The notes under the pieces were generated by a model. That model was not told where the DNA came from, ran no database searches, and saw only the letters and a program-made list of their open reading frames with translations. Position numbers and translations under genes: made by a program. Shown here piece after piece: positions 1-20,075 of a stretch of 21,393 nt of DNA. The stretch is from a virus. Position 1 is the first letter of the stretch; each line of letters opens with the position of its first letter. The stretch is taken from positions 1-21,393 of IMG/VR virus record IMGVR_UViG_3300017528_000327; one strand, written 5' to 3'.

Positions 1-552
1 CGGCGTTCGGCGACCCATCGACCGCTTGTAGACGATTTCCATCGGTGCGAAGCCATAGCCGAGCATCGACTGCATTTCGACGATAAAGTCCGGCCACGTA
101 TTCGACATGTCGTCACGGCAGCCATCGAAGAATTCCGCGTATTGCGCCGACTTCGGACTGTCGTCGGCCGGATCGACGCGCCACGTGATCTTCCGCATCG
201 ACGAATTGATCGCGTACATGAGACCGCCGACGACCGACGAGTTGTCCATCATTTCGCGGTACGTTCGCGCGCCGTTGCGGCCGACGAGCTGCGGCAGGAA
301 TTCTTCACGGACCCAGCCGGACCACTGGCGCAGACCAGACGAGCCCATGTCGGCGAACATCATGCCGCCCTGGTACTGCGGCGGCGCCAATCCGCCGGAG
401 CTGTCCGGCGATCGGCCGGCAGCGAGCGGGATCCCTCGCGACGGATTGACCGTCGGCATCGGCGGCGCCGGCCACGACGCCGGCGCTCCGCTGCGCGTTG
501 CCGGAGCGCCGAGACCGGCCAGATTGACCTTCGTTACGACGTCATAGCTCAT
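1..552 (-). CDS. Phage portal protein, N-terminal part (runs off the window)
   Basis: Forms the dodecameric ring at the capsid vertex through which DNA is packaged and ejected. The 184 visible codons start at the ATG at 552, whose ATGA overlaps the TerL stop, so the two genes are translationally coupled. The first ~65 residues are Pro/Ala/Gly-rich and low complexity. The conserved body starts near residue 75 with a WVREEFLPQL segment, then YREMMDNSSVVGGLMYAI, a KITWRVDPADDSP strand and a GYGFAPMEIVYKR segment. This order (a tyrosine-methionine helix, 'W-V-P-A', then 'G-F-x-x-E-I-x-Y-K') is what I know from portal proteins of the Mu gp29/DUF935-like and related groups encoded next to TerL. The C-terminal two thirds lie outside the window, so the exact family is not fixed. 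Confidence 0.85.
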   Translation of the reverse strand, partial: MSYDVVTKVNLAGLGAPATRSGAPASWPAPPMPTVNPSRGIPLAAGRSPDSSGGLAPPQYQGGMMFADMGSSGLRQWSGWVREEFLPQLVGRNGARTYREMMDNSSVVGGLMYAINSSMRKITWRVDPADDSPKSAQYAEFFDGCRDDMSNTWPDFIVEMQSMLGYGFAPMEIVYKRSMGRRTP

Positions 553-2141
553 GGAAGGTCACTCCCGGCCCTGATGACCATGGGCCCCTGGACGATCGCG
601 CTGCTACCCTCGCCGAACGCGTTCAAGACCGCTTCGCCTTCGTCCGGAGATCGGCCGATGCGCTCGCGGATATCTTCCTTCGCCTCAATCTTGATGCCCT
701 TCGGAACGTACTCGTACCGGATCGCACAGAGATCGGCGAGCAGCGACCGCGCCGGCGGCAGCTCGATTTCATGGCCCGACGCCGGATCGAGCGCTTCGCG
801 CAGACCCCATGCCCACTCGGCGCGCTTGTTGAAGTAGCCGAGTTTTGAATTGCTGCGCTTGAACGACTTGCCGCCGCCGAACATCGGAATGATCAGCAGC
901 TTGAACAACCGGCCCAGATCGACCGGCGACGAGCCGATCGCGACGGCGTCGATCTTGATCTTCGTGTTCGGCGACGGCGAGCTGCCGAGAATGTCGAAGA
1001 CGTCGCGGATGATCGACTGACCGTCCGGCGTCAGCTTGCCCGGCCGGACGACCAGCTCGTCGATATATTCGTTGCACCGCGGCGCATAGACGGTCTTGTC
1101 GCCGACGTTCTTGCTCTTCGGATCGCCGCGAGCGACGTCGATGCCGACGTCCGTGAGCTCGCGGACGACTTGCTCGCGCGGCCGCTTTTTCCAGCGCGCT
1201 TGCGCCGCTTCCACCCAGGCGGTCGGAATGACCTGCCACGGATGGTCGGCTTGCGCGAGATCGAAAGAACCCTTCAGCATCAGCGAGCGAAGCGGCTCGG
1301 GCAGCGCTTGCAGCTCCTTGCGGTAGCCCAGCGCCATATAGATCGGGTTGTCTTCGACGAACGACCTGATGAACGTCCGCGACTGCGGCTCGATCAGCTC
1401 CTCTTCGCCGGTCTCGGGATCCTTCCACCAGAATGGAACGCCGTTGCGGCACTCGCGCTCGACGCCGTCGATCATGGCGTACCAGCGCAGTTCGCCGTCG
1501 TTCGCCGGCCGCGGGTGACGCTTGTCCAGCCACGGGCCGAAATAGTCGATGACCCAATCGCCGTCGGCCGACGTCGGCGGATTGAAGCCGGCGATCGTCC
1601 GGCAGCGCTGGCCGGCGCGCGAAGTCCGGTTCCAGCCTTTCAGGAAGCGGAACTGATACTCGGTGAAGTGCGTCAGCTCGTCGAAGCCCTTCAGATCGTG
1701 CGGCCGCCCTTGATACTTGTTAACGTCGGCTTCGCGCTCGACGCCGCCGAATTCGATCCGTCTTCCGTCGTCAAGTTTCCACACCGGATGAGGCGAAGCT
1801 TTGAAGCGCCCGAGACCGGAATACATATCATTCGCGCGCTCGACCAGACCACTGAGCTGTGCAAGTTCGCGACGGAAAATGATACTTCGATGATGCTTCG
1901 TGTGAGCTGCGCCCAGCAGAAGATCAGTCTTTCCGCCGCCTGCCGCACCGCCAAATCCGAGGACGTCGGCTTCACTGCTCAGAGCCCGGCTTTGCGGGCT
2001 GTTCGGAAACGCTGACCACGCTACTTGCGCCGTCAATAGCGCGTCCAGCTCGGCGCGCTCGCGCAACGTTAAGAAGGGCAAGCACTCGGCCACTTCTTTC
2101 GCCGTCAGTAAGTCCCGCAGTATTGTACTCGAGGCCGTCAT
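549..2141 (-). CDS. terL: Terminase large subunit (TerL), ATPase plus nuclease
   Basis: DNA-packaging motor that cuts the concatemer and pumps DNA through the portal. The 530-residue length is normal for the family. A short helical N-terminal region containing LTLRERAELDALL precedes Walker A GGAAGGGKTD at about residues 64-73. SIIFRRELAQ follows near 86, then the Walker B/catalytic segment LKGFDELTHF at about 150-159 (D154, E155). The AGFNPPT coupling motif is near 184-190. The RNase H-fold nuclease begins with TDVGIDVARGD near 330-340 (D335 is the likely metal ligand) and continues through KIKIDAVAIGSS. The ATG at 2141 lies 170 nt inside the upstream TerS-like gene. I keep this start because the residues before Walker A look like the conserved TerL N-terminus. 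The 3' end overlaps the portal start by 3 nt. Confidence 0.95.
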   Translation of the reverse strand: MTASSTILRDLLTAKEVAECLPFLTLRERAELDALLTAQVAWSAFPNSPQSRALSSEADVLGFGGAAGGGKTDLLLGAAHTKHHRSIIFRRELAQLSGLVERANDMYSGLGRFKASPHPVWKLDDGRRIEFGGVEREADVNKYQGRPHDLKGFDELTHFTEYQFRFLKGWNRTSRAGQRCRTIAGFNPPTSADGDWVIDYFGPWLDKRHPRPANDGELRWYAMIDGVERECRNGVPFWWKDPETGEEELIEPQSRTFIRSFVEDNPIYMALGYRKELQALPEPLRSLMLKGSFDLAQADHPWQVIPTAWVEAAQARWKKRPREQVVRELTDVGIDVARGDPKSKNVGDKTVYAPRCNEYIDELVVRPGKLTPDGQSIIRDVFDILGSSPSPNTKIKIDAVAIGSSPVDLGRLFKLLIIPMFGGGKSFKRSNSKLGYFNKRAEWAWGLREALDPASGHEIELPPARSLLADLCAIRYEYVPKGIKIEAKEDIRERIGRSPDEGEAVLNAFGEGSSAIVQGPMVIRAGSDLP

Positions 2142-2559
2142 CGGCTGGCTTTCCGTCGGGGTCGATCTGGCCGGGCCCGCCGTCGCGGAAGCCGCAGTGT
2201 ACCTTGCTCAGAAACATGAGCAAGATACGATCCGGAGCGACTTCGGCGCGCGTCTGGTTGCCCTTCTCGTCGTACATGGCCGGACCGCCGAGCGCTTGGC
2301 GCATCAGCGTATTGCAGATCGCCGCTTGAACCTTGGCGTTCCCGTAGACCAGCTGCGGCGCGTAGTGCTTCCGCAGCGTATTGACGCTGACGCCGATCAG
2401 CGCGGCGATCGCGCGCTGCGGCACGCCGTTCTGCGAAGCGGCTTCGACTTGCGCGACGGTCGTCGGCGTCGGCCGGTGCGAGAGCGCGTGCAGCTCGTCG
2501 TCATCGTCGTCGCGCGGACGGCGCGGCGTCGGCGATACGCTTAACGACTTCTCAACCAT
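1972..2559 (-). CDS. terS: Probable terminase small subunit (HTH DNA-binding protein)
   Basis: Position directly upstream of TerL and a helix-turn-helix suggest the pac/cos-recognising small terminase subunit. Of 195 residues, the first ~30 are basic then Asp-rich (a run of five Asp). Residues ~36-66 form a homeodomain-like HTH (VEAASQNG followed by QRAIAALIGVSVNTLRKHY), as in resolvase-type or TerS DNA-binding domains. The remainder is helical (AAICNTLMRQALGG). The 170-nt overlap with TerL is out of frame, so the C-terminal tail (after about residue 139) is encoded in the same DNA as the TerL N-terminus. A GGGGAG sequence lies about 11 nt upstream of the ATG. Alternative: a phage HTH regulator that merely neighbours TerL. 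Confidence 0.7.
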   Translation of the reverse strand: MVEKSLSVSPTPRRPRDDDDDELHALSHRPTPTTVAQVEAASQNGVPQRAIAALIGVSVNTLRKHYAPQLVYGNAKVQAAICNTLMRQALGGPAMYDEKGNQTRAEVAPDRILLMFLSKVHCGFRDGGPGQIDPDGKPADDGLEYNTAGLTDGERSGRVLALLNVARARRAGRAIDGASSVVSVSEQPAKPGSEQ

Positions 2560-5488: not shown

Positions 5489-6376
5489 CTACGGCCGGGC
5501 CGTCGTATCTGTGTGTATCAGACGCATTCCGTAGTTGTCGATCTCGCCGGCGGGCGGCAGCTCGACGTCGGTCCGGCGTACCAGCCGGTTGTCCTTGAAC
5601 GGCGAATAATCGACGTAATGGTGCCAGCGCTTGAACCGCTGGACGAGCCGCGTAACGTCGGGGTGCATGCGCACCAGCATCTGCGATTTCGGCAGCGTCC
5701 CTTCCTTCGCGTAAAACTCGGACGTGTTGCCGCCCTTCAAGAGCTGCGTCACGTGCTTGTACTGAATAAACGCGTTGAACTGGATTGTGCACCAGCCGGC
5801 TTTGAGCATCCGCAGCGACAGATCAGTATCTTCGTTGTAGCGGCCGCGCCAGCGGAACGGAACGTCATTGCGGATGAGATTGCAGCTATAAATCCGCGTG
5901 TTCATAAAGAACGGCGGCGGCGCCGTCTTCCGCGGCGCGAACATGAAGTAATTCGGTCCGGCCATCGCGACGTTGGCGTAGCGGCCGACGAAGTCTTCCA
6001 TGCAGCGGAAGATCGTTCCGTCTTTCACCGGCACTTTCAGGTTCCGGTTCCAGCGGAAGAACATCCAGATATTATCGTCGACGACCCAGTGCCAGTCAGC
6101 GCCGGCGTCGATCGCGTGGTCCCAGATGAAGTTTCGAGCTGGACCGGGCCCCTTGCCCTTGCTGTCGCCGAGATCGTCGAACGTCTCGTAATAACGCTGG
6201 TACGAGCGATCGAGAACGAGCACGTTGCGCTTGTCGACGACCGCGCAATAGTCGCGATATTCCTGCTCTTCGACGACGACCTTGTAAGGTACGCCCATGT
6301 TCTCGAACGCTTTGATCGTACAGCGGCTGTCGGCGCGTCCCTTGCTGGGGATGTAGACCGGATATTGCGGGTTCAT
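5489..6376 (-). CDS. TET-associated-type glycosyltransferase (TAGT), DNA base modification
   Basis: Predicted to transfer a sugar to a modified DNA base (5-hydroxymethylcytosine or a related base) in the phage genome. The 295-residue protein has the GT-A layout of the TAGT family. VYIPSKGRADS (residues 7-17) forms the first strand and nucleotide-sugar contact, and YKVVVEEQEY is at 31-40. PGPARNFIWDHA (77-88) precedes the DxD-like metal motif VVDDNIW (98-104). FRWRGRYNEDTDLSLRMLK (174-192) followed by GWCTIQFNAF is the hallmark acid/base region. In the published family these enzymes act after a TET dioxygenase; no TET-like HxD protein is visible in this window. The ATG at 6376 overlaps the stop of the ParB-FkbM gene (ATGA), so the two are coupled. 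Substrate and sugar are unknown. Confidence 0.85.
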   Translation of the reverse strand: MNPQYPVYIPSKGRADSRCTIKAFENMGVPYKVVVEEQEYRDYCAVVDKRNVLVLDRSYQRYYETFDDLGDSKGKGPGPARNFIWDHAIDAGADWHWVVDDNIWMFFRWNRNLKVPVKDGTIFRCMEDFVGRYANVAMAGPNYFMFAPRKTAPPPFFMNTRIYSCNLIRNDVPFRWRGRYNEDTDLSLRMLKAGWCTIQFNAFIQYKHVTQLLKGGNTSEFYAKEGTLPKSQMLVRMHPDVTRLVQRFKRWHHYVDYSPFKDNRLVRRTDVELPPAGEIDNYGMRLIHTDTTARP

Positions 6377-7830
6377 TTCCGCACCAGCGTATAAGCGCGC
6401 TTCCGCGACTGGACGACGACGAAGCCCTCGCCGGCGAGCCGCTTGCGGATTGTCTCGCCGCGCGTCTCGTGGTCCGGCGCCGGGTGAAACTCGATGAACA
6501 GACAGCTTACGCCGGCGAGATCGCCGGGCTGGAGATGCTCGAGGAGGTCGTATTCGGCGCCCTCAATGTCCAGTTTGACTACATCAGGCTTGAATGCGAG
6601 CAGCTCGGTTCGGAAGTTGACGGCCGCGACGACCAGCCGTCCCTTGGCTTTCTCGCGCGGAACGACGCTATGCGAGCCAGGAAAGCCTGACGAGCACAGC
6701 TCGACACTACTGCGGTCGTCCGGCGCCAGGGCGGCGCGGACCAGCTGCGCGCGATCGCCGTATCGCGCCAGATTGCCGGCGATCAGGTCGGCGTTCTTTG
6801 CCACGGGCTCATATATGCGCACTGTGCTGGCACCCTGCTCCAGCGCCGCCGCCGAGAACGTTCCGATACAGCCGCCGCAGTCCATCACCCGCGCTCCAGC
6901 GCGCAGCTGGACCGCGGCGAACGGGTTCTTGGCTTCGGTCAGATCCTTGCCCAGCACCCAGGCGAACGACTTCGGAATATTGAAGCCGGCCGGCAGCGCG
7001 TCGCCGTAGCGGAAGACTGGCGCCGGCGGTCCCTGCTGTTCGGTGGTTGCGACACCGCTGGGAGGGGGTACCGCCGGCGCTGCCGGCGCAGCGGAAGGAC
7101 CGTTCGCGGCTGCCGGCGCTTGCTCCGGCGGTGACGCGGGCGCGGCGCCCGCCGGAGTAGTTACGTAGCGCTTGTCGACGTAGCTCTCGATCTCCAGCTT
7201 CGGATAGGTCAGCGACCGCGTATTCTTGGTGATCTTGACGCCGAGGATCGACGCGAACTTGTCGACCGCGGCTTGATCGACGAAATGCAGAACGACGTCT
7301 TGAAAGTACGATTTGTCCTCTTGCTCGAATTCCGGCATCCCCGACCACTCGCCGTGCGGATCGAGCACGGTCTCGGACGTCAGCGCCAGAAGCTGCGGCT
7401 CTGTGAAGCCGATCTGCGACAAGTCCGCGCCGAGCTCCTGCAGCTCGCCCAGCTCGATCTTCAGCAGATCGTAATCCCATGCGCTGTTCCGCGGGATCTG
7501 GTTGTCGGCGATGACGTGCTTGCGCTTCTGCTCGGCGGTCCAGCCGACGGCGATCATCACCGGCAGCTGCTTGATACCGAGACGCTCGGCGGCGACGATG
7601 CGGCCGTGGCCGGCGATTACGCCGCCGTCCTCGTCGATCAGGATAGGGTTCGTCCAGCCGTTCTCGCGGATCGACGCGACGATCTGGTCAATCTGCTCGG
7701 GCGGATGGGTGTTCGGATTGTTGACGTACGGCGTCAGCCGCTCGATCGGCCAGCGCTCGATCTTGTCGACCGGCCACGGGTTCGAGCTAAACGGCGCCGT
7801 TACCGGCGCCGCCGCGTTGGATTGCTGCAT
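6373..7830 (-). CDS. ParB-like domain fused to FkbM-family methyltransferase
   Basis: A 485-residue two-domain protein. Residues 25-125 are a ParB/sulfiredoxin-type domain (IERLTPYVNNPNTHPPEQID, ILIDEDGGVIAGHGRIVAAERLG, then HVIADNQI). Residues 175-212 resemble the extra strand-helix segment (FQDVVLHFVDQAAVDKFASI, then NTRSLTYP) found in phage ParB proteins. A Pro/Ala-rich linker spans about 224-272. Residues 285-485 form an FkbM-type SAM methyltransferase: motif I VMDCGGCIGTFSAA near 316-328, acidic EP at 341-342 and VKLDIEGAEYDLL at 418-430. FkbM enzymes O-methylate sugars and related hydroxyls, so methylation of a base-linked sugar is a reasonable inference next to TAGT. Phage ParB domains are more often fused to DNA N4/N6-methylases; this pairing is less usual. 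The ribosome site is weak (GAGAG) and the leader is highly structured. Confidence 0.88.
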   Translation of the reverse strand: MQQSNAAAPVTAPFSSNPWPVDKIERWPIERLTPYVNNPNTHPPEQIDQIVASIRENGWTNPILIDEDGGVIAGHGRIVAAERLGIKQLPVMIAVGWTAEQKRKHVIADNQIPRNSAWDYDLLKIELGELQELGADLSQIGFTEPQLLALTSETVLDPHGEWSGMPEFEQEDKSYFQDVVLHFVDQAAVDKFASILGVKITKNTRSLTYPKLEIESYVDKRYVTTPAGAAPASPPEQAPAAANGPSAAPAAPAVPPPSGVATTEQQGPPAPVFRYGDALPAGFNIPKSFAWVLGKDLTEAKNPFAAVQLRAGARVMDCGGCIGTFSAAALEQGASTVRIYEPVAKNADLIAGNLARYGDRAQLVRAALAPDDRSSVELCSSGFPGSHSVVPREKAKGRLVVAAVNFRTELLAFKPDVVKLDIEGAEYDLLEHLQPGDLAGVSCLFIEFHPAPDHETRGETIRKRLAGEGFVVVQSRKRAYTLVRK

Positions 7831-7854: not shown

Positions 7855-7935
7855 ACCGGGGCGGCCGCAGTCCGGCGTTACCGACGGACCACCCTCACCT
7901 CAGCGGATGAGCGGCCTTGTAAGGGCCGCCCCGGT
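7855..7935 (-). ncRNA. Structured 5' leader with two mutually exclusive stems upstream of ParB-FkbM
   Basis: A perfect 12-bp inverted repeat (ACCGGGGCGGCC; arms 7855-7866 and 7924-7935) encloses 57 nt. That interval contains small hairpins GTCCG/CGGAC (about 7870-7889) and CTCA-GCGGA-TGAG (about 7898-7910). On the leftward transcript the 5' arm can instead pair locally with GGCCGCTC (7916-7909) across a 7-nt CTTACAA loop. The two pairings exclude each other. The CCCCC run just before the ATG at 7830 could also pair with the GGGGC of the arm. It resembles a switching leader; no known riboswitch class is recognised. Confidence 0.45.
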
Positions 7936-7941
7936 CCGACG

Positions 7942-8024
7942 GTGGACTAATTTTAGCGCTACCGGTGCCAAACTAGTCCACCTCTGCGGTAAAGCGCTGC
8001 GGCGCAGCGTTTTACGGTGGACTA
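7942..8024 (-). promoter_or_regulatory. Leftward promoter flanked by three GTGGACTA operator-like sites
   Basis: Minus-strand TAAAAT (-10-like) lies at 7955-7950. GTGGACTA occurs at 7942-7949 and 8017-8024 on the plus strand and inverted (TAGTCCAC) at 7974-7981. Two of the sites bracket the -10 element at the positions expected for a start site and a -35 box; no good -35 hexamer is seen. The third site overlaps the stop of the small gene at 8022. Likely a regulated promoter for the modification operon. Confidence 0.5.
7989..8015. terminator. Terminator-like hairpin between leftward operons
   Basis: A 12-bp near-perfect stem GTAAAGCGCTGC-GGC-GCAGCGTTTTAC (one G-U pair on the plus RNA, one mismatch on the minus RNA). 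It sits just past the stop of the small gene at 8022 and between operator copies. A TTTT tract lies in the plus-strand arm and TTTA on the minus side, so it could end leftward transcription from the 8-12 kb operon. Confidence 0.5.
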
Positions 8025-8189
8025 AACCGGCTGACCGGCGTCATCTATGTACGGATGGCAGAGAAATGACGAGACATTGCGCAGCTCTCGACCGGCTTCC
8101 GCGCATCTCTCCAACGTCTCGAACTTGCCGCGATAGTCAGACTGGCACTGTCCGCCGACGGCGCAGACGACCGCGAGTAAAATCCACAT
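8022..8189 (-). CDS. Small Cys-containing, probably exported protein (55 aa)
   Basis: A short ORF at the end of the leftward operon, supported by a strong GAAGGAGG ribosome site 9 nt before the ATG at 8189 and by lying 3 nt after the upstream stop. The N-terminus MWILLAVVCAVGGQC is hydrophobic and signal-peptide- or lipoprotein-like, although a lysine or arginine before the hydrophobic stretch is missing. Four Cys residues in all (9, 15, 29, 44) could form disulfides after export. The TAG stop overlaps an operator-like GTGGACTA repeat. Function unknown. Confidence 0.65.
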   Translation of the reverse strand: MWILLAVVCAVGGQCQSDYRGKFETLERCAEAGRELRNVSSFLCHPYIDDAGQPV

Positions 8190-16005: not shown

Positions 16006-16787
16006 ATTGGCGCCCTCTTGTCCGCGATCAGACCGTCCACGATGAGCTCCAGCCCGATCTTCCGCTTCCGATAGTAAGTCGCAGGCCAGATGTCGTACAG
16101 CTCACAAGCGCGTCTGACCTTGACGCGCGTTGCGCGCCAGAAGCCGCCGAGATTGACGAAGCGCGCGATCTCGTCGTCGGTCTGGTCAGCCAGATAGTCG
16201 GTAGTCCAGCCGATCGCGTCGGCCGCGAGCTGCTCGTCCTGCGCGGTCCAATGGACGCGCCGGCGCAGTAAGCGCGACAAGTGCTTTTTCAGCTCTTGGT
16301 TTTCCGCCTGGGCGACGAGATCGGACAGCTGGGTAATCGTCTTCGGCATCATCGAGCCGAACTGACGCGGTCCGCCTTTCTTCCACGTCAGCGAGACCTC
16401 GAACGCTCGCGCGATCCGCTGGTCGACGATCTCGGGTGTCCAGATCGTTCCGCGCAGCGCGTTGTCGCGCTCGCGCTCACGCTGCCGCTCGTGGTACCGG
16501 TTGATGACGACCGTCCGCTCGGCTTCGATATCGGTCGCCGTCGGCGCCGTCTGCTCGATCGCGCGCTTGCGGTACTCGGACAGCGGCGGCGGATCGGGCG
16601 GCGTCGGCATCCGGACGTCGCCGGGCTCGACCAGATCGGAGTGTTCCAGGGTCGTCGCGTCCAGCGGCCAGCTCGTCTCGCGGTGCCGGCGCGCTATCTG
16701 TGATCGCTCGATGGCCTCTCGCCGGCGCGCCTCTCGCTCCTCTTGGCGCCGGAGCTGCGTCGGTTTCTTGGCGTCAGAAGTGCTCAT
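16002..16787 (-). CDS. Hypothetical protein with charged N-terminus and HTH-like C-terminus (261 aa)
   Basis: Overlaps the primase-helicase stop by 14 nt. The first 120 residues are charged and probably disordered or helical (ERQRERERDNALRGTIW). A folded part starts at WTPEIVDQRIARAFEVSLTW and includes a helix-rich section (DLVAQAENQELKKHLSRLLR) and a C-terminal HTH-like pattern (GFWRATRVKVRRACELYDIW, then PATYYRKRKIGLELI). Position directly downstream of the primase-helicase suggests a replication accessory or regulator; no family name can be given. Confidence 0.7.
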   Translation of the reverse strand: MSTSDAKKPTQLRRQEEREARRREAIERSQIARRHRETSWPLDATTLEHSDLVEPGDVRMPTPPDPPPLSEYRKRAIEQTAPTATDIEAERTVVINRYHERQRERERDNALRGTIWTPEIVDQRIARAFEVSLTWKKGGPRQFGSMMPKTITQLSDLVAQAENQELKKHLSRLLRRRVHWTAQDEQLAADAIGWTTDYLADQTDDEIARFVNLGGFWRATRVKVRRACELYDIWPATYYRKRKIGLELIVDGLIADKRAPI

Positions 16788-19134
16788 TTTCTACGTCGCT
16801 CGATGCTGCCGCCGGCGCCGGCGCTCTGTCGATCGCCGCGGTCTGCGGCCAGACAATCCCCGGTCCGACGACCGGCCGCCCCGTAGGCCAGATGTAGTGA
16901 ACGTCGCGCGCCGTCACGATCCCTGCGTCGTCGGTACTCTTCGACGTCACTTTCGCGACGGCGACGACGCCGCGCTTGTAGAGCTGGTCGCGCGCGCGGT
17001 GCATCGACGTCTTGATCCGGTTGAGATACTTGCGGTGGCCCTCTTCGGTCTCGTCGTCGTTCGGCGTCTGGTTGCGGTAGACGGCGCCAATCTCTTTCCA
17101 CTGCACGACCTTGGTGATGGACTTCGGCAGATCGCCGCGCAGCTCGGTCGGCGGCTCGACGCCACTCTTGTTGAGCGCGCGAAGCAGCGCCAGAAAGAAC
17201 GCGACTTCCGGCGCCGTCAGATGCCACGCCCCGACCGGAATGCCGCTGCGCGGCTTGGCGATCTCCTGATTGTCGCGGCCGAGATCGCCCTCGCCGCGGA
17301 CCGGTTCGTCGATGACCATGCTGCGGAACGGGTCGCCGTCCTCGTCGACGCCCAGCTCGACCTCTTGCAGACAGAAGTCGACGCTGAGATGGTCGGCGCC
17401 GTCGCGCTGCTTGTCGATCGTCAGCCGCCGGATTACGCGCGGCTTATCGTAGTGCTGGTCGTACTTGTCGCGCTCGCTCTCGCCGCGCCCTTCGGTAACG
17501 CGCGCGATATGGATCGTCGTGTCGATCCGATTGTAAATTTGCTCGTTTCCGCGATGCCGGCCGTCCTTGTTCGAGTGGCCGATGATCCACAGAGGCGCGC
17601 CGACGGCTTCGCTCAGAGCGTCGTAGTTGGTCAGAATTTTCGAGATATCGTCGGACTTGATCTCGCTCGATCCGCGCGTCGCGCTGTTGTGCGTGTCGAT
17701 GACGACGAAGCCGAGACGGTGCTTCCACTGCGCCGTTACGAACTTGATCTCTTCGGCCAGCGACTTTACGGTGTGGTCGTCCGTCGCGAACAGCCCCGGC
17801 GGCCGCGTCCACCACGCGAAATGCCGGAGATCGTCGCCGCTCAGATTGTTGTGCTTGGCGTACGCTCGGATACGGTTCTCGAAACCGTTCTGCCCCTCAT
17901 AGCTCAAATAGACGCCGCCGAGCTGCTGAACCTTGCGGCCGTCGACCGGCTTCCCGAGCACGACGCGCATCGCCATGTCGAGGACTTTGAACGTCTTGCC
18001 GCTCTGCGACGGGCCCATAATGAGTACATGGTCGTTCCGCGGTATCAGCCCCTTGACCGTCCAGTCGTACGCTTTCGCCGGACCGCCGAGATCGGAGAAT
18101 GTCTTGGCGCCGAAGCGCGACTGATAAGGCGGCGGCTCCCAATCCTTCAGCTTGTCGACGAGCGCGTAAAGCTTGTCGGCGTCGCCGCCGGCCTTCTCTT
18201 TCCAGTCCGTGATGTCGCCTTTCGGCGGACACTCCGGCCAGATTTCGCCGACGCGCAGAACGCGAACGCGGCAACCATGCTCCAGAAGCATCGGCGCGAT
18301 ATCGTTCGTTCGCTTGCGGCCCGCATCGTCGTTGTCCTCGATCAGAACGATATCGCCGTGCGCGAGCAGCTTCGCCAGCTCCGGCTTGAAATTGCCGGCG
18401 CCGCCGCTGTTCGTCGTCGCGGCCATGTCCCACGCTTCGAGCGTGTGAACGTCTTTCTCGCCTTCCGGCAGAAACCACGTCAGCTGATCTTGCCGCTCCT
18501 GCTTCAGATCCTCGATCACCTTCGGCAGTCGGTACAGCGAGTGGCCGATCCCTTCGAGGTTCCAGACCCAGCCCTGTTTTATGTCTTCCGGCGGATCGTC
18601 GAGCCGGGGCTTGCGCCGCTGCGCGAAGCCCTTGGGATCGAACCGGACCACTTCGTACGCAAGCCCGCCGTCTTGCCGCTCGTACTGATACGTCGCGACG
18701 ATACTGCGTCGGCCGCCGCGCGCATTGCCGCTGCTAGCTCGCGCCGCGTCAGCGGCTGGTCGATCATGATCTTCAGATATGCGCCCTTCTGGCTTTCGTC
18801 GCGTGGAAGCCGCTTTGCCGTTGGCGGGTGATGGATCGTGACCATTGCGCCGATTGTCATGCTGTACGTCGCCGGCGAGACGCGCGACTTCGCGGACCGC
18901 GTCGGGGAATTTGAGACCGTGATGGACTTGGAAGAACTTGAAGACATCGCCGCCCTCTTTATGCGAGCCGTGGTCGTACCACAGCCGCTTCCTGTCATTA
19001 ACCGTGATTGATTTGTCTTCGACCGCGGCCAGCTCGGTACCCTGCCGGCGAAGCGTGAACTTCGTCGACACGGCGGCGCTGACCGAGACGCGCTCGCGCA
19101 GCTCGTCGAGATAGTGCTCGTCGTAACCCGACAT
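16774..19134 (-). CDS. Primase-helicase (TOPRIM plus RepA-type AAA helicase)
   Basis: Central replication enzyme: makes primers and unwinds DNA at the fork. Start at the ATG at 19134 (786 aa); a TTG 39 nt upstream is less likely. Residues ~8-87 match a CHC2 primase zinc-finger fold (FTLRRQGTELAAVEDKSI, then DVFKFFQVHHGLKFPDAVRE), but the zinc-binding Cys/His are gone (LWYDHGSHKEGG where CFGCG normally sits). The TOPRIM domain spans about 218-315: FLPEGEKD (E224), VLIEDNDDAGRK (DND at 267-269) and KGDITDW (305-311). The RecA-like helicase starts near 345, with Walker A MGPSQSGKT (373-381), Walker B FVVIDTH (476-482) and sensor IIGHSNKDG (517-525). The C-terminal ~200 residues are helical with an HTH-like tail. 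Confidence 0.9.
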   Translation of the reverse strand: MSGYDEHYLDELRERVSVSAAVSTKFTLRRQGTELAAVEDKSITVNDRKRLWYDHGSHKEGGDVFKFFQVHHGLKFPDAVREVARLAGDVQHDNRRNGHDPSPANGKAASTRRKPEGRISEDHDRPAADAARASSGNARGGRRSIVATYQYERQDGGLAYEVVRFDPKGFAQRRKPRLDDPPEDIKQGWVWNLEGIGHSLYRLPKVIEDLKQERQDQLTWFLPEGEKDVHTLEAWDMAATTNSGGAGNFKPELAKLLAHGDIVLIEDNDDAGRKRTNDIAPMLLEHGCRVRVLRVGEIWPECPPKGDITDWKEKAGGDADKLYALVDKLKDWEPPPYQSRFGAKTFSDLGGPAKAYDWTVKGLIPRNDHVLIMGPSQSGKTFKVLDMAMRVVLGKPVDGRKVQQLGGVYLSYEGQNGFENRIRAYAKHNNLSGDDLRHFAWWTRPPGLFATDDHTVKSLAEEIKFVTAQWKHRLGFVVIDTHNSATRGSSEIKSDDISKILTNYDALSEAVGAPLWIIGHSNKDGRHRGNEQIYNRIDTTIHIARVTEGRGESERDKYDQHYDKPRVIRRLTIDKQRDGADHLSVDFCLQEVELGVDEDGDPFRSMVIDEPVRGEGDLGRDNQEIAKPRSGIPVGAWHLTAPEVAFFLALLRALNKSGVEPPTELRGDLPKSITKVVQWKEIGAVYRNQTPNDDETEEGHRKYLNRIKTSMHRARDQLYKRGVVAVAKVTSKSTDDAGIVTARDVHYIWPTGRPVVGPGIVWPQTAAIDRAPAPAAASSDVENEHF

Positions 19135-19200
19135 TTCCCAATTCCCGCGTCGCTCTTGATTTGCCGGCGGCAACGTCGGCTATTCGTCCAGTGTACGCAA

Positions 19201-19452
19201 TCAGCGCAGCCGGTTCATTTCGCGGATGATCCGCTTGACCAGATCAGCCGGCAGCGCCGCGAACTTGTCGAAGAATTCTTCCATCTCCAGCACGGTCGCG
19301 CGCTTGCGTTCCGTCAGCTCCAGCGGACCGAACTGTTTCAAGATCGCGTCGTATGATCCGCGCTCGACCGCCAGATACCGGCGCCAGCGGTCCAGCGGCC
19401 GCTCCTTCGCCGGCGGCTCGGCTTCGAAGACTTCGGTCTGCATCTCGGTCAT
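19201..19452 (-). CDS. Small hypothetical protein (83 aa)
   Basis: ATGA overlap with the RusA gene. The product is helical and charged: PPAKERPLDRWRRYLAVERG, LELTERKRATVLEMEEFFDK, then a C-terminal LPADLVKRIIREMNRLR helix. The 66-nt gap after it leads to the primase-helicase. It may be a helicase loader or nucleoid-type accessory protein given its place, but nothing in the sequence proves this. Confidence 0.7.
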   Translation of the reverse strand: MTEMQTEVFEAEPPAKERPLDRWRRYLAVERGSYDAILKQFGPLELTERKRATVLEMEEFFDKFAALPADLVKRIIREMNRLR

Positions 19453-20075
19453 TCGACTTGCTCCACTTCGTCTGGCGGATCGAGCCGCGGCGGCAGCTCC
19501 TCGTCGTCATCGGCTTCGATCGGTTCGGCGATCTCCGGAAGCGGCAGACCGCCAGGGATGAACGGAATATCGGCCAGACGGCAGAGATCGGCCTCGTCCA
19601 GTTCGGAGGCGCGGACCTCGATCCCAGTCTGGTCGTCGGGCCCGTACCACTTGGCGACGCGGCCGTCGACGACCTCGGCGTCGTCGCGCCAGATACCGCC
19701 GGCGAGTATGCCGGTGCGCTTGTCGCGCTGCGGATTGAGCGCGTCGCAAGCTGCTTTGGCGTAGTTGTCAAAGTCCGGCTTCCCAGTCGGCCGGACAAGA
19801 CCAGCGAGCGCGAGCTCACGCGTACGCTTCGGCCAGCTCTTCGGTACCGGCTTAACGACGATGACGTCGACCATCAGCGGTCCCTTGAGCCGCTTGTGGC
19901 GGCCGCGGACCATCTCCAGATCAGCAGCGTCGCGCAGCTCCTTCTCGAACTTGCGGGTCTTCGCCGGCGTGTAGAGCGTAACGAACGCAGCGCCGCGCTT
20001 CGGCTTTACCAGCCGAGCGCGCGCGCGTCCTTTACCGACGGTATCGCCGGCGAGACGGATAACGATCGTGCGCAC
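19449..20075 (-). CDS. rusA: RusA-family Holliday junction resolvase
   Basis: Cleaves four-way DNA junctions during phage recombination and before packaging. The RusA order is clear: IVIRLAGDTVGKGRARAR near the N-terminus, TLYTPAKTRKFEKEL at 33-47, then the catalytic block GKPDFDNYAKAACDAL at 98-113 (D101, D103) and IWRDDAEVVDG at 128-138 (D131, D132). A C-terminal extension of about 60 residues ends in an acidic tail (EADDDEELPPRLDPPDEVEQ). GTG start at 20075, 12 nt after the upstream stop, with a poor ribosome site; expression may rely on coupling. Length (208) is above that of the shorter RusA proteins because of the tail. Confidence 0.9.
   Translation of the reverse strand: MRTIVIRLAGDTVGKGRARARLVKPKRGAAFVTLYTPAKTRKFEKELRDAADLEMVRGRHKRLKGPLMVDVIVVKPVPKSWPKRTRELALAGLVRPTGKPDFDNYAKAACDALNPQRDKRTGILAGGIWRDDAEVVDGRVAKWYGPDDQTGIEVRASELDEADLCRLADIPFIPGGLPLPEIAEPIEADDDEELPPRLDPPDEVEQVE

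Follow-up and report, generated by a model that had tools for sequence, protein, structure and literature searches.

What does a phage glycosyltransferase of the TAGT family modify when its gene is translationally coupled to a single protein joining a ParB-fold domain to an FkbM-type methyltransferase? The question is raised by a window of 21,393 bp that comprises an entire virus record, itself a fragment, and in which two adjacent minus-strand open reading frames encode proteins of 295 and 485 residues (Table 1). We compared both proteins and their neighborhoods with those of other phages. The gene pair probably marks an uncharacterized kind of phage modification, because the pairing recurs in many phages without any known DNA-preparing route having been found there.

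Domains of the gene pair

Table 1. Features of the window and the evidence for each of them.
Feature	Position	Strand	Evidence
Terminase large subunit, downstream of the cassette (context, outside the proposed machine)	549..2141	-	phrog_979, E=6.2e-39
Probable terminase small subunit (context)	1972..2559	-	Position and HTH-like sequence, by eye
TAGT-family glycosyltransferase, 295 aa	5489..6376	-	PF20691, E=1.3e-42; phrog_842, E=3.8e-50; invariant residues
ATGA overlap of fusion-gene stop and TAGT start	6373..6376	-	
ParB - Mid - Pro/Ala linker - FkbM fusion protein, 485 aa	6373..7830	-	Profile matches, sequence comparison
FkbM-type methyltransferase domain, residues ~266-485 (MDCGGCIG, KLDIEGAEYD)	6376..7035	-	PF05050, TIGR01444
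Pro/Ala-rich linker, residues ~229-265	7036..7146	-	Sequence; pLDDT <50
Mid module, residues ~158-228 (W-x-GMPEFEQED ... FASILGVKITKNTRSLTYP), TAGT partner	7147..7359	-	Co-occurrence, conservation
ParB-fold domain, residues ~22-156, P-motif GHGR (74-77)	7363..7767	-	phrog_620, Foldseek, motif
Structured intergenic region with three GGTGGACTA copies, upstream of the fusion gene	7860..8060	.	Folding, repeats

The original prediction had described a TAGT glycosyltransferase coupled through an ATGA overlap to a ParB-like domain, itself joined to FkbM by a Pro/Ala linker, and each of these elements is borne out. The glycosyltransferase scores 146.5 bits against its Pfam family (cut-off 27.5), and its DDN motif (D100, D101, N102), the acidic metal/donor motif of GT-A enzymes, is invariant in 20 relatives, as are N181 and D183 of NEDTDL. 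An AF2 model of a natural homologue fused to the Mid module described below (not of the window protein) has a well-packed chain (pTM 0.84) with structural matches to GT-A enzymes; it resembles the protein/polysaccharide glycosyltransferases COLGALT1 and TarP, a likeness that speaks to the GT-A fold and to nothing narrower. A PDB sequence search with the TAGT protein returned chance matches only, and its activity on DNA is putative.

The C-terminal domain of the fusion protein exceeds the cut-offs of PF05050 (28.6 against 22.7 bits, residues 317-470) and TIGR01444 (43.6 against 37.7 bits), with residues of the SAM motif and of K-x-DIEGxE (D52, G54, G58, K154, D156-G159, E161) invariant in a six-sequence alignment. 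The N-terminal domain falls below its Pfam cut-off (22.6 against 26.3 bits) and well below the full partition ParB model TIGR00180 (24 against 58.45 bits), but it is identified as ParB-like by phrog_620 (E=4.7e-47) and by its predicted fold, which Foldseek matches to ParB, Noc and KorB structures with E values down to ~2e-6. It also keeps the P-motif, a GxxR stated to be needed for nucleotide binding in ParB folds (PMC12704722); nothing was found in favor of the DNA-nicking role that had been suggested for this domain. AF2 predicts the ParB part of the window fusion confidently; no model of the FkbM arrangement is offered, because pLDDT is below 50 in the linker and over a large share of the FkbM portion. 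Upstream of the fusion gene, the intergenic stretch contains nested inverted repeats and folds better than 199 of 200 shuffled sequences (z -3.09); neither this region nor the rest of the window has an Rfam match, and the region is a possible operator or packaging element.

The Mid module and its glycosyltransferase

Between the ParB and FkbM parts lies a separate conserved unit of about 70 residues, here called Mid, which the original prediction had missed. Pfam, PHROG and NCBIfam leave it uncovered in the window protein, apart from several residues at the margins of ParB-family matches; those Mid-only proteins that were scanned matched no family of named function. Its W-x-GMPEFEQED segment is the best conserved part of 22 aligned ParB-Mid proteins, the ParB half being variable, and Mid contains no strands in either AF2 model (the window fusion and the Mid-TAGT homologue).

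Recruitment with TAGT alone gave 137 distinct loci, of which 128 have Mid either fused to TAGT or encoded in a nearby gene. When loci cut short upstream are set aside, the figure is 113 of 116 (60 with ParB-Mid, 35 with Mid alone and 18 with a fusion), and in one of the three exceptions (L089) Mid lies 1.6 kb upstream. In contigs recruited with the Mid motif, TAGT likewise adjoins Mid or stands one gene away. Judged from this co-occurrence, Mid is a near-obligate partner of the TAGT clade found in the window, and a partnership of the two is very likely. TAGT without an alpha- or beta-glucosyltransferase has been reported in 288 of 753 genomes, its function there being undefined (PMC13216743), and a near-obligate partner module, together with cultured phages and bacterial genomes carrying the pair, makes that question testable.

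Cultured phages with Mid-TAGT fusions include Aeh1, 65, POP12, PTm1, Kuja, 1.124.O and 1.076.O. In Aeh1, POP12 and Vibrio phage 1.124.O, Mid and TAGT form one unit as they do in the window, but Mid is fused to TAGT directly and neither ParB nor FkbM is attached. TAGT-recruited loci from bacterial assemblies include those of Erwinia sp. OLFS4 (L209), Chryseobacterium gambrini DSM 18014 (L216), Xenophilus sp. E41 (L219) and Marivivens donghaensis KCTC 42776 (L231); the deduplicated table has ParB-Mid in L215 (Chryseobacterium) and L218 (Xenophilus), and a fusion in L231. A second, tiny Mid-like protein of ~60 residues directly follows the Mid-TAGT fusion in Aeh1 (L115 4394-4594) and POP12 (L119 4352-4531).

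Methyltransferases and ParB partners across phages

The link between FkbM, ParB and TAGT that the original prediction had drawn recurs in other phages. A scan that used FkbM relatives as query kept 80 loci, 66 of them triads of ParB, FkbM and a TET/JBP-like gene and six with FkbM in a Mid/TAGT cassette, counts that should not be read as frequencies because L129 and one of the triads were represented in the query alignment and many of the triads are closely related. Gene order is Mid-FkbM-TAGT in L387, L393, L403 and L410, Mid-FkbM in L374, which is cut before TAGT, and ParB-Mid-TAGT-FkbM-terminase in L129; in L304, FkbM lies upstream of a Mid-TAGT fusion. In a tree, the six cassette FkbM sequences form one clade (100/97) and those of the triads another (100/100). 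The FkbM domain of the window sits on a long branch that the tree does not place; measured along the branches it comes closest to cassette members, a proximity that carries no support. Since FkbM genes recur in the cassette, the window protein is best seen, from these comparisons, as a ParB-Mid protein fused to an FkbM gene that elsewhere is sited between Mid and TAGT; no other ParB-Mid-FkbM fusion was found among the relatives recruited in the survey. FkbM likely acts within the TAGT pathway, as a putative O-methyltransferase of the sugar or of another hydroxyl, although it need not act on the TAGT sugar because FkbM also adjoins TET genes where no TAGT is seen. Another class-I methyltransferase is encoded in or beside the cassette at 10 distinct loci.

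Methyltransf_11/12/23-like methyltransferases are found between Mid or ParB-Mid and TAGT in L083, L007, L200, L283, L156 and L335. Extra glycosyltransferases occupy the interval between Mid and TAGT in L089, L038, L281 and L289; Pfam matches among them are to GT8, GT1 and a second TAGT-like protein, and the L281 enzyme matches, weakly, the sugar-binding DXD type, with that of L289 looking similar.

The triads, present on 66 contigs (within L338-L415) and also in L090 and L091, are mostly located just upstream of the terminase and likely constitute a DNA hypermodification cassette without TAGT. They occur in the cultured cyanophages MED4-184 and MED4-117, where FkbM comes after ParB and both precede the terminase, as in the window, but as separate genes, with a TET/JBP-like oxygenase instead of TAGT and without Mid. 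The original prediction had set the ParB-FkbM combination apart from ParB domains paired with DNA methylases, a contrast that holds only in part: adjacent, separate ParB and FkbM genes are common beside a TET/JBP-like gene, and the unusual part of the window locus is the fusion with Mid plus the coupling to TAGT. Other partners follow related ParB domains upstream of the terminase in Psychrobacter phage Y8A, where the ParB gene precedes Mom (L092 6521-7778; PF25680, E=1.8e-55), and in Pseudoalteromonas phage SL25, where it precedes an ATPase-GNAT protein (L093 15120-16723). Such swaps of partner behind the phage ParB fold (Mom, FkbM with TET, TAGT) suggest that genome-modification systems have a loading platform in common. 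The TET/JBP-like protein of L090 (13295-14080) matches phrog_6059, named queuine tRNA-ribosyltransferase; its PF12851 match, though under the cut-off, and its motif suggest that this name is wrong.

The order found on the minus strand of the window, with the cassette followed by the terminase some 3 kb on, is similar to that of other cassettes. Where enough sequence was available, the large terminase subunit gene starts within 2.5 kb downstream of 40 of 64 ParB-Mid cassettes and of 40 of 48 TET triads, as compared with none of 35 Mid-only and none of 13 fusion loci. Some Mid-only cassettes stand, by eye, amid replication and recombination genes (gp46-like, clamp, polymerase), and in Vibrio phage 1.076.O the Mid-TAGT gene lies between portal and head-morphogenesis genes. 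The ParB-type neighbors, the pre-terminase site and the replication-gene context therefore favor DNA as the target, with 1.076.O as an exception. Another gene of the 1.076.O genome (L419 29780-30145) is annotated as Lar, a restriction alleviation protein.

Acceptor and proposed pathway

Glycosylation of a prepared base had been envisaged as the first step of the pathway, and this is the part of the original prediction that, unlike its domains, coupling and FkbM-ParB-TAGT link, is left without support in the form given. TET/JBP (PF12851) and TS-type (PF00303) enzymes were found in none of 63 cassette records (37 plus 24 IMG/VR records, among them one that ends short of TAGT, along with two Vibrio phages), with 35 of the 63 reaching 30 kb or more; the same searches recover the TET genes of the triads and gene 42 of T6. 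Pfam scans of two long cassette records revealed no other oxygenase, and a complete-looking 42-kb record (G011) shows no base-preparing enzyme. This absence is strong but not final, because many records are fragments. Aeh1 and 65 carry Mid-TAGT while not being among the T4 relatives listed with gene 42 (PMC2993671). TS-family matches in Aeh1, PTm1, Kuja, henriette, POP12 and 65 have thymidylate synthase as best PHROG, an assignment that may not separate hydroxymethylases. A C5-cytosine methylase, considered as a shared first step, was rejected, being present in 5 of 39 cassette records. With no known base-hydroxylating enzyme found alongside the cassette, the acceptor is the weak point of the proposal, and there are three ways to account for the absence: the base-preparing enzyme is of an unrecognized kind, TAGT attaches its sugar through a different reaction, or the sugar goes to something other than DNA. 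We nevertheless regard DNA as a probable acceptor, which would require either a base-preparing enzyme yet to be recognized or some other chemistry, and methylation as falling somewhat more probably on the sugar than on the base.

The reading that we favor, at a little short of even confidence, is that of a scaffolded machine that glycosylates and then O-methylates phage DNA. The two genes would encode one modification machine beside the packaging genes, in which Mid would dock the TAGT glycosyltransferase and the ParB fold would serve as a nucleotide-binding, nucleotide-controlled scaffold that associates with phage DNA and keeps the complex there. TAGT would place a sugar on DNA, most likely on a base, and FkbM, held near it by the flexible linker, would methylate one of the hydroxyls on this sugar; the resulting modification would shield phage DNA from host nucleases. 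More tentatively, the Mid-type TAGT may represent a distinct DNA glycosylation system that operates without a hydroxymethyl base made by TET or TS enzymes, Mid or ParB-Mid bringing TAGT to an unprepared or unrecognized position on DNA and FkbM or another methyltransferase capping the sugar.

The lack of base-preparing enzymes in the cassette records, including the 42-kb one, is also what would be expected if the sugar were transferred to a virion or host protein or to a surface glycan, with FkbM methylating the TAGT sugar and ParB-Mid acting as an NTP-controlled scaffold. The location of Mid-TAGT among head genes in 1.076.O points the same way, as does the likeness to COLGALT1 and TarP, within the bounds of GT-A fold evidence. 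We nonetheless consider such an acceptor less likely than DNA, given that many ParB cassettes precede the terminase, that this type of ParB elsewhere accompanies DNA-modification enzymes, that some Mid-only cassettes are embedded among replication and recombination genes, and that the characterized TAGT of T2/T6 acts on DNA, to which it adds a second glucose (PMC13216743).

If DNA is the substrate, FkbM could instead methylate the base or its hydroxymethyl group, the window FkbM and TAGT acting on DNA in parallel. The triads, in which FkbM is present and TAGT was not found, fit O-methylation of a TET-made hydroxymethyl; this arrangement is improbable for the window, since no enzyme making such a hydroxyl was found in TAGT cassettes and the cassette FkbM clade is separate from that of the triads. 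An ordinary TET- or TS-initiated hypermodification, with the enzyme making 5hmC or 5hmU encoded by the host or in a stretch of the phage genome beyond the window, appears slightly more improbable still: the window and many of the compared contigs are indeed fragments, but these enzymes are absent from the longer cassette records as well, and Mid-TAGT occurs in phages not listed with gene 42.

Phage hypermodification systems linking TAGT to TET/JBP enzymes have reportedly been described by Iyer 2013, which is also said to have introduced TAGT and may note parts of the present neighborhood, and by Pyle 2024. These systems share the TAGT family with the window-type cassettes, which differ in having no TET/JBP in the 63 records. 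The T2/T6 enzyme, a beta-glucosyl-HMC-alpha-glucosyltransferase, shares PF20691 and the GT-A fold with the window TAGT, but in T6 it is without Mid and adjoins gene 42, whereas in the window clade Mid is present and the searches revealed no hydroxymethylase. Phage fusions of a ParB-CTPase fold to a SAM methyltransferase, with GxxR as in the window (Kaljevic 2025, PMC12704722), are named there with N6_N4 and Methyltransf_23 domains; the main text of that paper does not mention FkbM or, for these fusions, the Mid/TAGT coupling seen in the window. The open-license phage literature yielded no paper on FkbM with ParB and a glycosyltransferase, on ParB with Mom and a glycosyltransferase, or on ParB with a dioxygenase and terminase. 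Elsewhere in the window, a primase-helicase with Zn ribbon, Toprim and AAA domains (16774-19173) and a RusA resolvase (19449-20075) make up an ordinary phage replication module.
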